Shown here piece after piece: positions 60,678 through 63,723 of a DNA stretch of 64,000 nucleotides (positions within the stretch are counted from its first letter, which is position 1; each line of letters opens with the position of its first letter). This DNA is from Sunxiuqinia dokdonensis (GTDB lineage Bacteria > Bacteroidota > Bacteroidia > Bacteroidales > Prolixibacteraceae). Position numbers and translations under genes: made by a program. The stretch spans positions 1-64,000 of the forward strand of contig NZ_LGIA01000181.1 of NCBI RefSeq assembly GCF_001270965.1, in the 5' to 3' direction. Under the pieces are notes generated by a model, which ran no database searches, was not told the DNA's origin, and saw nothing but the letters and a program-made list of their open reading frames with translations.

Positions 60678-61772
60678 ATGACAAAGCTATTCGTTCATTT
60701 GTTGTTAATCGCGATTGTATTTTTGGGGGCTTGCCAAGATAAGACGAAACAAAGCGAACAAACAGCCGCAGATCCGGCAGTTAAAATCTGGACGGTAGAG
60801 CAGGCCGAGGTCTGGGGCGATGAACATGGCTGGCTTCGGGGCTGCAACTTCAACCCCAGCACGGCCATCAACCAGTTGGAAACCTGGCAAGCCGAAACCT
60901 TCGACCCGGAAACCATTGACCGAGAGTTGGGCTGGGCCGAAGAAATTGGTATGAACTGCATGCGGGTGTACCTGCACCATGTTGCTTGGGAAGTTGACAA
61001 AGAAGGCTTCAAAGATCGTATGAACCAGTACCTGGACATTGCCGACAGCCACGGGATTAAAACCATTTTCGTGTTTTTCGATGATTGTTGGAATGCCACT
61101 TACCAGGCTGGCAAGCAACCCGAACCCAAACCGGGCGTTCATAACTCAGGCTGGGTACGTGACCCGGGCGATTTGCTGCATGAGCAACCCGAACTAACAG
61201 AAACCCTCGAAGTGTATGTGAAAGATGTCCTTACAACATTCGAGGACGACAAACGCATTGTGATGTGGGATTTGTACAATGAGCCCGGAAACTCAGGCTA
61301 CGGCAACAAATCCATGCCTCTGCTGAAGCAAGTATTCGAATGGGGCTGGGAGATTCGTCCTTCGCAGCCTTTATCAGTTGGCGTTTGGAATCTTTCCCTG
61401 GCTGATTTGAATAAATTTCAGGTGAAGAATTCGGATATCGTCACCTATCACAACTATGAAGGGCCGGAAAAACACCAGGCTGCTATCGATTCACTGAAAG
61501 CCTACAACCGTCCGATGGTTTGCACCGAATACATGGCCCGTCGCAACAATAGCCTGTTCCAGAATATCATGCCTATTCTGAAGAAGGAAAATATAGGCGC
61601 CATCAACTGGGGCCTTGTTGCCGGAAAATCAAACACAAAATATGCCTGGGACGACCCCATTCCCGATGGTTCGGAACCGCCACTCTGGTTTCACGAAATC
61701 TTTCATCCCGACGGAACACCTTATAGCCAGGACGAGGTTGATTTGATTAAAAGCTTGACATCGGATGAGTAA
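60678..61772 (+). CDS. GH5-like (clan A) glycoside hydrolase lipoprotein
   Basis: A 364-residue lipoprotein (lipobox VFLGACQD). A TIM-barrel cellulase-type fold is suggested by WLRGCNFNPSTAIN, MNCMRVYLHHVAWE, the acid/base E202 in WDLYNEPGN and nucleophile E284 in VCTEYMA. The substrate is uncertain; relatives are often labelled xylanases. The base composition is richer in G+C than the susCD region, so it may have joined the cluster separately. I start at MTKLFVH, not at an upstream ATG at 60630. Confidence 0.8.
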   Translation: MTKLFVHLLLIAIVFLGACQDKTKQSEQTAADPAVKIWTVEQAEVWGDEHGWLRGCNFNPSTAINQLETWQAETFDPETIDRELGWAEEIGMNCMRVYLHHVAWEVDKEGFKDRMNQYLDIADSHGIKTIFVFFDDCWNATYQAGKQPEPKPGVHNSGWVRDPGDLLHEQPELTETLEVYVKDVLTTFEDDKRIVMWDLYNEPGNSGYGNKSMPLLKQVFEWGWEIRPSQPLSVGVWNLSLADLNKFQVKNSDIVTYHNYEGPEKHQAAIDSLKAYNRPMVCTEYMARRNNSLFQNIMPILKKENIGAINWGLVAGKSNTKYAWDDPIPDGSEPPLWFHEIFHPDGTPYSQDEVDLIKSLTSDE

Positions 61773-61898
61773 TTAGATTAAAAATTGCGTGCTAAATTGA
61801 GTTGAGATTGGAGAGAACTTAAACTGCAGAAATTGCCACAACTATTGCGATTCGTTGAAAGGCAAGTTCTTTTATTATTAACAGTTTAATTCATAACC

Positions 61899-62726
61899 AT
61901 GGAAACATATTGTCAGATCGCTACTGACCTTGAGAATGATTTGTCCGGGATGGGTGAAATCTCGGATAAATTCCCGGAGCAAATAGAGTATGCTACCGGG
62001 CGTTGTAAATTGGCGCTGGATCATCTGCATGAGCTGGTGCTAAAAAAGGGATTTCCTGATAAGAAATCTGAAATTCTGTTTTTTAAGAAGATCAAACCAT
62101 CAGTTTGCAGTAAGCTTATTTACTTTCAGGCTGTCTTCGATCTGGAAAGCATTCGTTTGAAGCTTGACAGCGAAAGCGTCAGAAAATATTTTAGACGGGA
62201 GCAGAAAAGGATTCTGAAGTACATGAAAGATCACAAGGTGAAAGTTCAGTACTACCGTTGTGGTCATCGCCACCTTGATGAAAAATATTTTTTGCGGGAT
62301 AATAGTGAGATTCCTCTGGAAGTAAAAGACAGTCACTCACTTCTGGACGAGAATTTCTTTTCTTGGCATGACCACACGTTTTCCACCATCATGGCAAACG
62401 AAATGCTCCTTGAATACATCAAAAATGAAATGAAAAAACTGGACCATTGTCAGGGAGATAATTTGCCACAATCGAACCTCAAATGGACTGGAAACAAAAT
62501 AGACTTGCAGGAACTCCTTTATGCCATCTATTTTGATGGCTCTGTTAATGATGGCAAGGCCACTATCAAAGAATTGGCTGAAGCCTTCGAGTGGATGTTC
62601 AACATTGAACTCCAGGAGCATATTTATGGGACTCCGGAGCAATTAGTTAAGAGAGCTGATCCTGTCAAGTACCTCACTCACTTGATGGCTATCCTGAGAC
62701 GAAGAATGAACAATAAGCTTAAATGA
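61899..62726 (+). CDS. rteC: RteC domain protein
   Basis: A 275-residue regulator of the RteC family, which in CTnDOT activates excision genes. The C-terminal RteC signature is LKWTGNKIDLQELLYAIYFD, then IKELAEAFEWMFNIEL and LMAILRRRMN. Two helical domains are expected. It marks the mobile-element backbone to the right of the sugar cargo. A structured RNA follows it. Confidence 0.9.
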   Translation: METYCQIATDLENDLSGMGEISDKFPEQIEYATGRCKLALDHLHELVLKKGFPDKKSEILFFKKIKPSVCSKLIYFQAVFDLESIRLKLDSESVRKYFRREQKRILKYMKDHKVKVQYYRCGHRHLDEKYFLRDNSEIPLEVKDSHSLLDENFFSWHDHTFSTIMANEMLLEYIKNEMKKLDHCQGDNLPQSNLKWTGNKIDLQELLYAIYFDGSVNDGKATIKELAEAFEWMFNIELQEHIYGTPEQLVKRADPVKYLTHLMAILRRRMNNKLK

Positions 62727-62783: not shown

Positions 62784-62791
62784 TATCTTTG
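62784..62791 (+). promoter_or_regulatory. -7 element before the structured RNA
   Basis: TATCTTTG matches TAnnTTTG, followed by GCG. The -33 region is poor. The transcript would begin near 62797, just before the first hairpin. Confidence 0.5.
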
Positions 62792-62796
62792 CGAAA

Positions 62797-63013
62797 CATA
62801 CGATCGATAGAATCTCATCGGGATAGGATCCCGATGAATTGACAATATAAAAAGCGTTGGCTTTTTATTCTTGCTTCTAAAACCGCCAAATTTTAAAGCA
62901 CAACAAGAATAATAAGGATAACGCTCACGCCATGGGCGTGGGCATTCCTATTTGTTGTGCGGGTACTTGGCGGTACCTAGAGGCAGTAGGCTATGTTCCA
63001 CGCCTCTTTTTTT
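62797..63013 (+). ncRNA. candidate structured small RNA downstream of rteC
   Basis: About 217 nt with no reading frame. Stems by eye: CATCGGGAT/ATCCCGATG (62816-62836, perfect); ATAAAAAG/CTTTTTAT (62847-62868); and a long foldback 62882-62974 combining ACCGCCAA/TTGGCGGT, GCACAACAA/TTGTTGTGC and GCTCACGCC/GGCGTGGGC. An alternative fold pairs AGCGTT (62853) with AACGCT (62920) and TTATTCTTG (62865) with CAAGAATAA (62904), which excludes part of the foldback. It ends at a terminator. CTnDOT has a small RNA (RteR) next to rteC; homology to it is not shown. Confidence 0.65.
62979..63013 (+). terminator. terminator of the structured RNA
   Basis: AGAGGC (62979-62984) pairs with GCCTCT (63002-63007), followed by seven T. 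The loop of 17 bases is long but can pair internally. Confidence 0.65.
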
Positions 63014-63052
63014 GTTCGAATTCTAATAACTTACCATCCAACAACAAACACC

Positions 63053-63295
63053 ATGTCATCACTTAATACTAAAAAAATCCGCCAGAATGCCGATTTGGCC
63101 AATGCCGTGTCGAAATGCCCGTTTGGAGAGCCAGTTGCTGATTGTCCATTTATCCCCTACTATGAGATGAAAAATGAACGAGAACAAGTGACACAAATCG
63201 AAATAATCCCACAAAAGAAACTGGAAGAACTGCGCGAATTTCACCGGGCATGCTTGCGGGAATTAATGAAAACTCGGAAAGCCAATTTCCTGTAA
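63053..63295 (+). CDS. small CPF-motif protein, unknown
   Basis: An 80-residue charged protein. It contains the double motif CPFGEPVADCPF followed by IPYYEM, then a helical QKKLEELREFHRACLREL tail. Two of its Cys are nine residues apart, suggesting metal binding or a disulfide, but I recognise no family. The ATG at 63053 follows the RNA terminator; a longer frame from 62993 begins inside the terminator and is rejected. Confidence 0.65.
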   Translation: MSSLNTKKIRQNADLANAVSKCPFGEPVADCPFIPYYEMKNEREQVTQIEIIPQKKLEELREFHRACLRELMKTRKANFL

Positions 63296-63423: not shown

Positions 63424-63723
63424 ATGCCAGCAGAAATTATTACCACCGATGATCTGCAGAAATTCAAAATTGAAATCCTGCAGGAATTTAAAAAGATGCT
63501 GAAAGAGCACAACGGGCAGCCTGTCAAGAAATGGCTTAAATCGTATGAAGTCCGCAAATTCCTTGGAATCTCCCAGGGTAAACTTCAAAACATGCGGCAC
63601 AACGGGACCCTACCTTACACTCGAATCGGGTCGGTCATCTTCTATGATGTGGAAGACATCCGTAAGATGATGGAAAATAACCAGGAAGAAGCCAGAAATC
63701 CCCGGATTGATTATTCCCGATGA
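63424..63723 (+). CDS. helix-turn-helix excisionase-like protein
   Basis: A 99-residue protein with an N-terminal coil (residues 8-30) and a MerR/excisionase-type HTH_17 domain: KWLKSYEVRKFLGISQGKLQ, then the wing LPYTRIGSVIFYDVEDIRKM. Such proteins are found next to integrative-element replication genes in Bacteroidota and in CTnDOT act in excision. The stop overlaps the next ATG (ATGA). Confidence 0.88.
   Translation: MPAEIITTDDLQKFKIEILQEFKKMLKEHNGQPVKKWLKSYEVRKFLGISQGKLQNMRHNGTLPYTRIGSVIFYDVEDIRKMMENNQEEARNPRIDYSR

Follow-up and report, generated by a model that had tools for sequence, protein, structure and literature searches.

A structured RNA with competing helices between rteC and an apparent transfer operon in Sunxiuqinia dokdonensis, a probable transcription attenuator with relatives across Bacteroidota

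The rteC-orf80 interval and its parts

The window, meaning the whole 64,000-nt stretch analysed here, comprises positions 1-64,000 of the forward strand of contig NZ_LGIA01000181.1 from Sunxiuqinia dokdonensis (GCF_001270965.1). Near its end, an apparently non-coding span of about 217 nt, reckoned from a promoter motif to a U-tract, lies between rteC and the small-protein gene orf80. The genes and the parts of the RNA are given below, with the kind of evidence in brackets.

61899-62726, + strand: rteC, the upstream neighbour (PF09357, E 9.4e-56)
62784-62791, + strand: TAnnTTTG motif, TATCTTTG, which we take to be a Bacteroidota-type -7 promoter motif (sequence)
62814-62837, + strand: clade-specific 5' hairpin CTCATCGGGAT/ATCCCGATGA (MFE structure)
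62834-62842, + strand: mini-ORF ATG AAT TGA in the 5' leader (sequence)
62849-62866, + strand: segment 1 (S1, AAAAAGCGTT), within the small hairpin H0, with segment 2 (A) as its alternative partner (permutation test, pair counts)
62853-62858 and 62920-62925, + strand: AGCGTT and AACGCT, the competing pair S1:A (sequence)
62865-62873, + strand: S2, TTATTCTTG, the alternative partner of S2' (permutation test, pair counts)
62873-62879/62978-62984, + strand: helix P1 (covariation, fold)
62978-62984, + strand: right strand of P1, TAGAGGC
62883-62889/62967-62973, + strand: helix P2, left strand CCGCCAA (covariation, fold)
about 62898-62906/62952-62960, + strand: helix P3, right strand TTGTTGTGC (covariation, fold)
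62904-62912, + strand: S2', CAAGAATAA, common to S2:S2' and the foldback (covariation, fold)
62920-62929, + strand: segment 2 (A), AACGCTCACG, with B (at the foldback apex) or S1 as partner
62935-62943, + strand: segment 3 (B), GGCGTGGGC, with A as partner, or C, which closes a terminator-like stem
62961-62977, + strand: hairpin beta, GGGT...TACC, whose loop holds the right strand of P2 (62967-62973)
62998-63004, + strand: segment 4 (C), CCACGCC (CACGC core near-invariant across the family)
63007-63013, + strand: U7 tract (T7), the terminator-like end
63053-63295, + strand: orf80, the first downstream gene, coding for a small protein (invariant C22, C31-P-F, H64, and C67 in alignment A4 of 18 homologues)
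63424-63723, + strand: gene for an HTH_17 protein, downstream (Pfam)

A sequence-only reading of this DNA had described a structured, non-coding RNA bounded by the TAnnTTTG motif and a T7 end, and the motif, the stems, and CCACGCC followed by T7 are indeed all present at 62784-63013. In fact, the segment 62795-63015 folds at -81.8 kcal/mol, as compared with -51.7 +/- 4.2 kcal/mol for 200 shuffles (z -7.25), none of which folds as well. That the foldback and the alternative pairings share bases, as had also been proposed, is borne out by the coordinates above. Here, we noticed that in this ICE copy the AGAGGC of the right strand of P1 is also complementary to the GCCTCT preceding the U-tract, and this complementarity, read from the letters, is a second predicted way for foldback and terminator to exclude each other. 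Look-alikes of the 5' hairpin, judged by eye, occur in the close rteC-linked relatives.

Downstream of the RNA, every ORF of at least 70 residues in a listing to 81000 is on the same strand. The genes include those for HTH_17, DUF4133/TcpE-like, TraG P-loop, TraM, and DUF4138 (presumably TraN-type) proteins, a coupling protein, MobC, and a relaxase, along with a TraJ-like protein below the Pfam cut-off. Given these same-strand T4SS and mobilisation genes, the leader heads an apparent transfer operon, with which the tra genes would presumably be co-transcribed. No Pfam match was obtained for orf80; its invariant C, C-P-F, H, and C residues look zinc-binding-like. On the upstream side, 127 bases (61772-61899) separate the end of a GH5-like gene from rteC, and so an ICE boundary may be close.

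The small RNA RteR is encoded beside rteC in CTnDOT, and the sequence-only reading had accordingly placed the present RNA in an rteC context. This adjacency is real locally, with rteC upstream and orf80 downstream in 17 of the 30 first-found members, all from the window's taxonomic family. Counting the window copy, 17 loci show the order rteC-RNA-orf80, rteC identity falling as low as about 29%; 14 of these loci continue with the HTH_17 gene on the same strand. It is not general, however, in that orf80-type proteins make up only 18 of the 159 first downstream proteins in the wider set.

Relatives and covariation of the competing helices

When 140 genomes from the taxonomic family of the window were searched at the DNA level, 23 gave matches (E<=0.001), the own genome included. 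Using covariance model R1, which is based on an initial alignment (A1) of 30 members with the chance match L029 removed, we detected 167 carriers among 393 sampled genomes of the order and 64 among 395 of the phylum; strict filters and the scoring of seven candidates per genome make the copy numbers of this survey lower bounds. Among 30 consecutive genomes of the order, 13 were positive, with 1-30 copies (one antisense echo in genome G151 counted), while 20 genomes picked for having matches held 3 to 35 copies each. The S. dokdonensis genome has four, on contigs C181 (the window copy), C151, C146, and C193, and a SusC/SusD pair starts 485 nt downstream of the C193 copy. Named carriers from a pattern scan of 46 stretches include Sunxiuqinia indica, Labilibaculum manganireducens, Soonwooa buanensis, and Aequorivita echinoideorum, and further carriers in that scan are MAGs of Tangfeifania, Paludibacter, and Ignavibacteriales.

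Novelty had earlier been made conditional on Rfam, and Rfam 15 held no match that would remove it. The whole window returned tRNAs only, as did 20 diverse loci; the element itself, at E up to 10, returned SurA as its best match (21.7 bits, E 0.0014, with 100 bits required), and 20 further loci at E up to 0.5 gave three sub-threshold matches, none overlapping the element. Collections of viral contigs and plasmids had 0 matches, and phages gave one unannotated record. A literature search over titles and abstract openings, subscription papers lying largely outside it, brought up no description of the RNA family. In the texts of PMC11109978 and PMC8632094, the words Bacteroid, Porphyromonas, Prevotella, and Flavobacter are absent, as are Bacteroid, Porphyromonas, Flavobacter, and Cytophaga in that of PMC2965389.

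For covariation, 11 antisense or partial rows were removed in alignment A2, and the later alignment A5 comprised 105 rows, 102 of them distinct. In the distinct rows, 96.6% of the foldback cells are paired, 27 of 36 pairs are changed on both sides, and 891 cells carry changes on both sides as opposed to 239 in shuffles. The covariation score of the foldback is 0.69 (0.22 shuffled, <=0.08 slid) in an alignment fitted to the foldback structure. For the alternative set (S1:A, S2:S2', B:C, and beta), to which the alignment was not fitted, 90.3% of the cells are paired, 17 of 26 pairs are changed on both sides, and the score is 0.211 (0.157 shuffled, <=0.083 slid). H0 and alpha together score 0.154 versus 0.101 shuffled, and in two of five measures (both-side-changed pairs and further pair types) they do not rise above shuffles.

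The strand under selection can be read from the same pairs. Rather expectedly for any long inverted repeat, the reverse strand also folds well (z -8.1). Over the 105 aligned copies, the foldback cells divide into 2836 Watson-Crick, 388 G.U, 25 A.C, and 77 other; two columns in which G.U predominates account for about 157 of the G.U cells, and the remainder is still ~9 times the A.C count. This excess of G.U over A.C argues that selection acts on the plus-strand RNA.

Moreover, we compared the pairing of each strand with its own partner and with the partner from another copy, using 100 copies that are <85% identical (5 rows at >=85% removed). In a second form, partners were permuted inside similarity clusters, which stand in for lineages, come from the same alignment, and reach 53 members in the largest. 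The foldback helices gave z values of -38.7 (P1), -17.4 (P2, with changes on both sides in all 7 pairs), -39.3 (P3), and -8.7 (A:B; -5.1 within clusters). Among the competing pairings, TTATTCTTG/CAAGAATAA (S2:S2'), which the sequence-only reading had picked out, covaries clearly, with z -14.5 overall and -8.3 within clusters, 83.4% of its cells paired, and at least one change on both sides in each of its 9 pairs. The other pairing picked out there, AGCGTT/AACGCT (S1:A), holds overall (z -3.7) and not within clusters (p 0.65), and B:C behaves likewise (z -4.6; p 0.08 within clusters), probably because both are nearly invariant and hardly vary there. Single exchanges in S1:A are AGCTAAAT/ATTTAGCT in a copy from genome G312 and AGCAT/ATGCT in locus L069. 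Of the small hairpins, beta has z -4.0 overall and -2.7 within clusters (inner pair U-A in 60 sequences, C-G in 15), H0 has -5.4 in both forms, and alpha has -4.2 within clusters, its overall value being unusable on account of non-pairing energies.

The control pairings S1:P2, S1:P1', P2:C, A:C, S2:B, P3:C, and P1:C were not significant in either form for these 100 copies, and in an earlier sequence set one control, S2:P3', reached p 0.0145. S1:P2 (z 0.1, p 0.54) corresponds to the suggested GTTGGC/GCCAA pairing, which can form in the window copy and is not conserved. A closing stem S1:C, which RNAalifold had predicted and which is part of model R1, was not supported (permutation p 0.18 and 0.63). 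Compensatory change among homologues, the check that had been proposed for the structure, is thus found for the foldback and for S2:S2' alike, and as S2' is common to both, a two-state RNA is the simplest reading.

Leader, downstream gene, and the strand beyond the U-tract

Of 167 deduplicated copies, 108 have a TAnnTTTG motif ahead of S1, at a distance of 10-85 nt, as against 5.4% in shuffles; the 59 copies that lack it may have other promoters or be transcribed from the preceding gene. At the opposite end, a T run of at least 4 is found near the match end in 151 of 169 deduplicated copies and is absent in 18. Between motif and S1, ATG-stop mini-ORFs with at most 3 inner codons are present in 41 of 87 leaders, compared with 20.4 +/- 4.0 in shuffles, and missing from 46, while ATG itself is not enriched in these leaders (59 versus 54.4 +/- 4.5); the counts cover only the region before S1 in leaders with the motif at >=40 nt and are not fully deduplicated. 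A ribosome on the 5' mini-ORF is a candidate regulator, not more. In several lineages (e.g. L207-L218, L017, and L092), GACATA(A) shortly 5' of S1 and a CCTATG-stop motif recur.

The RNA is tied to the gene behind it. In the deduplicated set of 169, 148 of 154 nearest downstream ORFs point the same way as the RNA, as do 87 of 153 nearest upstream ORFs (opposite in 66; p 0.11). Start codons lie <=60 nt from the U-tract in 76 of 155 deduplicated copies and <=100 nt in 108 of 155, the baseline at 815 random positions (a set not fully deduplicated) being 16.7% and 26.5%, respectively; in 47 of the 155, no ORF starts within 100 nt. First downstream genes have signal-peptide-like starts in 79 of 137 cases, versus 92 of 467 other genes at the same loci (Fisher p 9e-17), by an ad hoc rule and not SignalP. 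Pfam matches to 109 of the 159 first downstream proteins spread over 151 families, none in more than 6 proteins, with the T9SS sorting tail commonest and BspA-type repeats, TonB plugs, lectin-like, and TPR domains also present; the set leaves out 18 orf80-type proteins and 32 picked by eye, for the most part short frames and look-alikes. As many of these 32 are TonB-receptor-like, this kind is under-counted.

Conserved pairing also reaches past the U-tract. The segment just before and into the CCA of C pairs with a strand, E, shortly beyond the U-tract (z -11.2; -7.2 within clusters), and the upstream control gives z -0.3. With -8.5 kcal/mol or better taken as strong, this C:E pairing is so in 48 of the 100 copies, most of which have E starting some 25-40 nt ahead of the start codon. 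Among the rteC-linked copies, only one of 12 (L017) has a strong E, and the window copy, at -1.9 kcal/mol, has none. Since C:E is conserved across the U-tract, the read-through RNA is evidently under selection in those relatives, which does not extend to this copy. Many G312 copies have TAACGCTTTTTGGGGAG, or a sequence close to it, in the spacer that follows the U-tract; being complementary to S1, it might possibly be an extra S1 target ahead of the start codon.

The orientation with the downstream gene and the pairing across the U-tract both speak for a cis leader, and it is here that the RteR-like frame of the sequence-only reading is not supported. Taken as RteR-like, the RNA would be a free-standing, trans-acting small RNA of ~217 nt that always ends at U7 and pairs with other mRNAs, for example via S1/S2. 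There is precedent in RteR of CTnDOT, which the excerpted text of PMC7366714 describes as trans-encoded, 90 nt long, and acting on the tra operon, and the promoter motif and U-tract of the element itself, the strong conservation of the S1/S2 region, and a window copy devoid of E all suit such an RNA. Yet orientation and spacing track the downstream gene (148/154), about half of the tested copies conserve C:E, a second TAnnTTTG in gaps of up to 150 nt is no commoner than chance (4 of 133 versus 5.2 expected, not fully deduplicated), and the conservation of S1/S2 is explicable by its alternative partners. We consider a trans-acting RNA unlikely. Going by description only, the likeness to RteR, a regulatory RNA of a Bacteroides conjugative transposon that acts on its tra operon (excerpted text of PMC7366714), ends with length and distribution, since the window RNA is larger, as had been noted earlier, and is phylum-wide, multi-copy, and oriented with its downstream gene.

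Proposed attenuation, rival readings, and known systems

With moderate confidence, we favour a 5' leader that acts in cis on the operon behind it (here orf80, HTH_17, and probably tra genes) through a chain of mutually exclusive helices, and the element is probably a transcription attenuator. Mutually exclusive, covarying helices are present (S2:S2' and the foldback within clusters, with S1:A and B:C weaker), and a GC-rich stem with a U-tract stands before a co-directional gene. As we picture it, strand 1 (S1/S2) would pair with strand 2 (S2'/A), or strand 2 would instead join strand 3 (B and P3') in the foldback. With 1:2 formed, B would be free for C (3:4), and the resulting stem beside the U-tract would act as a terminator, leaving the gene off; in the foldback (2:3, locked by P1, P2, and P3), B would be hidden and RNA polymerase would read on, turning the gene on. 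The fifth strand, E, present in roughly half of the tested relatives, could there pair with C next (4:5), which could form only once polymerase had passed the U-tract; the window copy would do without this step. That the U-tract terminates transcription, with 1:2 plus 3:4 as off and the foldback as on, is what this model supposes, and the released short RNA may be a product too.

RNAfold energies, which leave aside pseudoknots, proteins, and kinetics, give -81.5 kcal/mol for the foldback of 62795-63014 and -68.3 kcal/mol with 1:2 and 3:4 forced; the B-to-C hairpin alone (62934-63005), with the U-tract next to it, has -34.6 kcal/mol. With the foldback 13 kcal/mol better in this copy, termination would need a factor or kinetics. 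In folding of growing prefixes, H0 forms first, 1:2 upon emergence of A (62924-62934), and A:B from 62939; H0 reappears from 62949, and S2'/P3 pairing (from 62964) and P2 (from 62974) both come ahead of C (62998). Given this order and the two energies, we propose the antiterminated foldback as the default, to be diverted to termination, or the reverse if the foldback needs a factor in vivo. The choice would be made by an RNA-binding protein, a ligand, or a ribosome on the 5' mini-ORF, the downstream genes being too varied to point to a particular signal. Moreover, the conserved segments flanking P2 can pair across it (alpha and beta), by which P2 would become a kissing-loop helix.

The same segments could be read as a riboswitch, in which the internal loops or the alpha and beta hairpins around P2 would form a small-molecule pocket choosing between the same helices. 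A pocket of this kind would fit the conserved GAAA/UUU and GG(U)/ACC segments, whose adjoining stems are hypervariable, and the many copies per genome ahead of diverse genes, but the downstream genes show no metabolic theme (the 151 Pfam families over 109 proteins, none in more than 6), and we give this possibility a low weight, much as for the trans-acting RNA. Mainly translational control, with C:E and B:C governing ribosome access and the U-tract an inefficient terminator, seems less likely again. It draws on E lying, in most strong-E copies, some 25-40 nt ahead of the start codon, and on the 18 of 169 ends without a T run of 4. It is at odds with the GC-rich stem partner that most copies have ahead of the U-tract (control of translation does not call for a fixed T-rich end) and with a window copy that has no E. 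An integron-like array was brought to mind by copies lying among short co-directional genes, with neighbours that by eye resemble toxin-antitoxin genes, and by truncated G312 copies, but folded attC-like DNA, or a recombination-site or gene-cassette reading generally, is rejected as the main one in view of the plus-strand bias of G.U over A.C (388 versus 25), the enriched promoter motif, and the unbiased orientation of the upstream gene.

The attenuator that we prefer has a familiar counterpart in trp-type attenuators, which have ordered, mutually exclusive hairpins before a U-tract. The present RNA resembles them in its ordered, mutually exclusive pairings (1:2, 2:3, 3:4) ending at a U-tract, and differs in that no leader peptide with regulatory codons was found in the part scanned, the mini-ORF-enriched region before S1, and in its long multi-helix antiterminator, the frequent fifth strand past the U-tract, and the diverse downstream genes. 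Riboswitches for c-di-GMP (GEMM) can be present many times in one genome, ahead of diverse genes that often relate to the envelope; the likeness lies in the multiple copies and diverse downstream genes, and the difference in the absence of an Rfam match here. Also comparable is HMP2_4205 (Fremin and Bhatt, 2021), a palindromic 132-bp sequence with a predicted terminator, commonly near TPR genes according to the excerpted text of PMC8040213, and, so compared, it could be a fragment of the window RNA family. The Bacteroidetes candidates Bacteroidales-1 and Bacteroides-1 (Weinberg, 2010; excerpted text of PMC2864571) have Rfam numbers, in contrast to the window RNA, which is unmatched in Rfam.

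With relatives across Bacteroidota that usually stand right before a gene, one whose product is often exported, this looks like an undescribed RNA-switch family and not a one-off small RNA. We rate it as a new family of a known device type with an unusual multi-strand relay. A broader reading, which we entertain as possible if somewhat improbable, is that one RNA switch, relaying through as many as five strands (1:2, 2:3, 3:4, 4:5) and having a kissing hairpin pair, runs an exported-protein-rich, multi-gene regulon throughout Bacteroidota, in which up to about 35 leaders in a genome answer one shared signal, and was recruited by conjugative elements to gate their transfer operons. Should the leader reading be right, a large and abundant phylum would use an undescribed leader RNA on up to dozens of genes in each genome, many of which code for exported proteins, and the same leader RNA would also control conjugative transfer operons. 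This would give a phylum with few understood regulatory RNAs a defined one, and with it a handle on the silencing and switching-on of accessory and mobile genes.

Some minor observations concern the arrangement of copies. Full-length and partial copies can stand in a row, as at L133 and L125 of G312, where matches to the 5' half only accompany full copies, each ~100-170 nt before a gene; at L133, two of the genes behind such copies are near-identical. Recombinase-like genes adjoin the RNA at four loci, namely a tyrosine integrase upstream at L026 (Pfam) and L027 (by eye), a serine-resolvase-like gene upstream at L034 (by eye), and an integrase N-terminal domain downstream at L016. Lastly, tandem RNAs ~40-50 nt apart, in the manner of tandem riboswitches, are found at G312:C817:251-638, G285:C7:85097-85458, G285:C22:17820-18181, and G209:C706:8994-9377.
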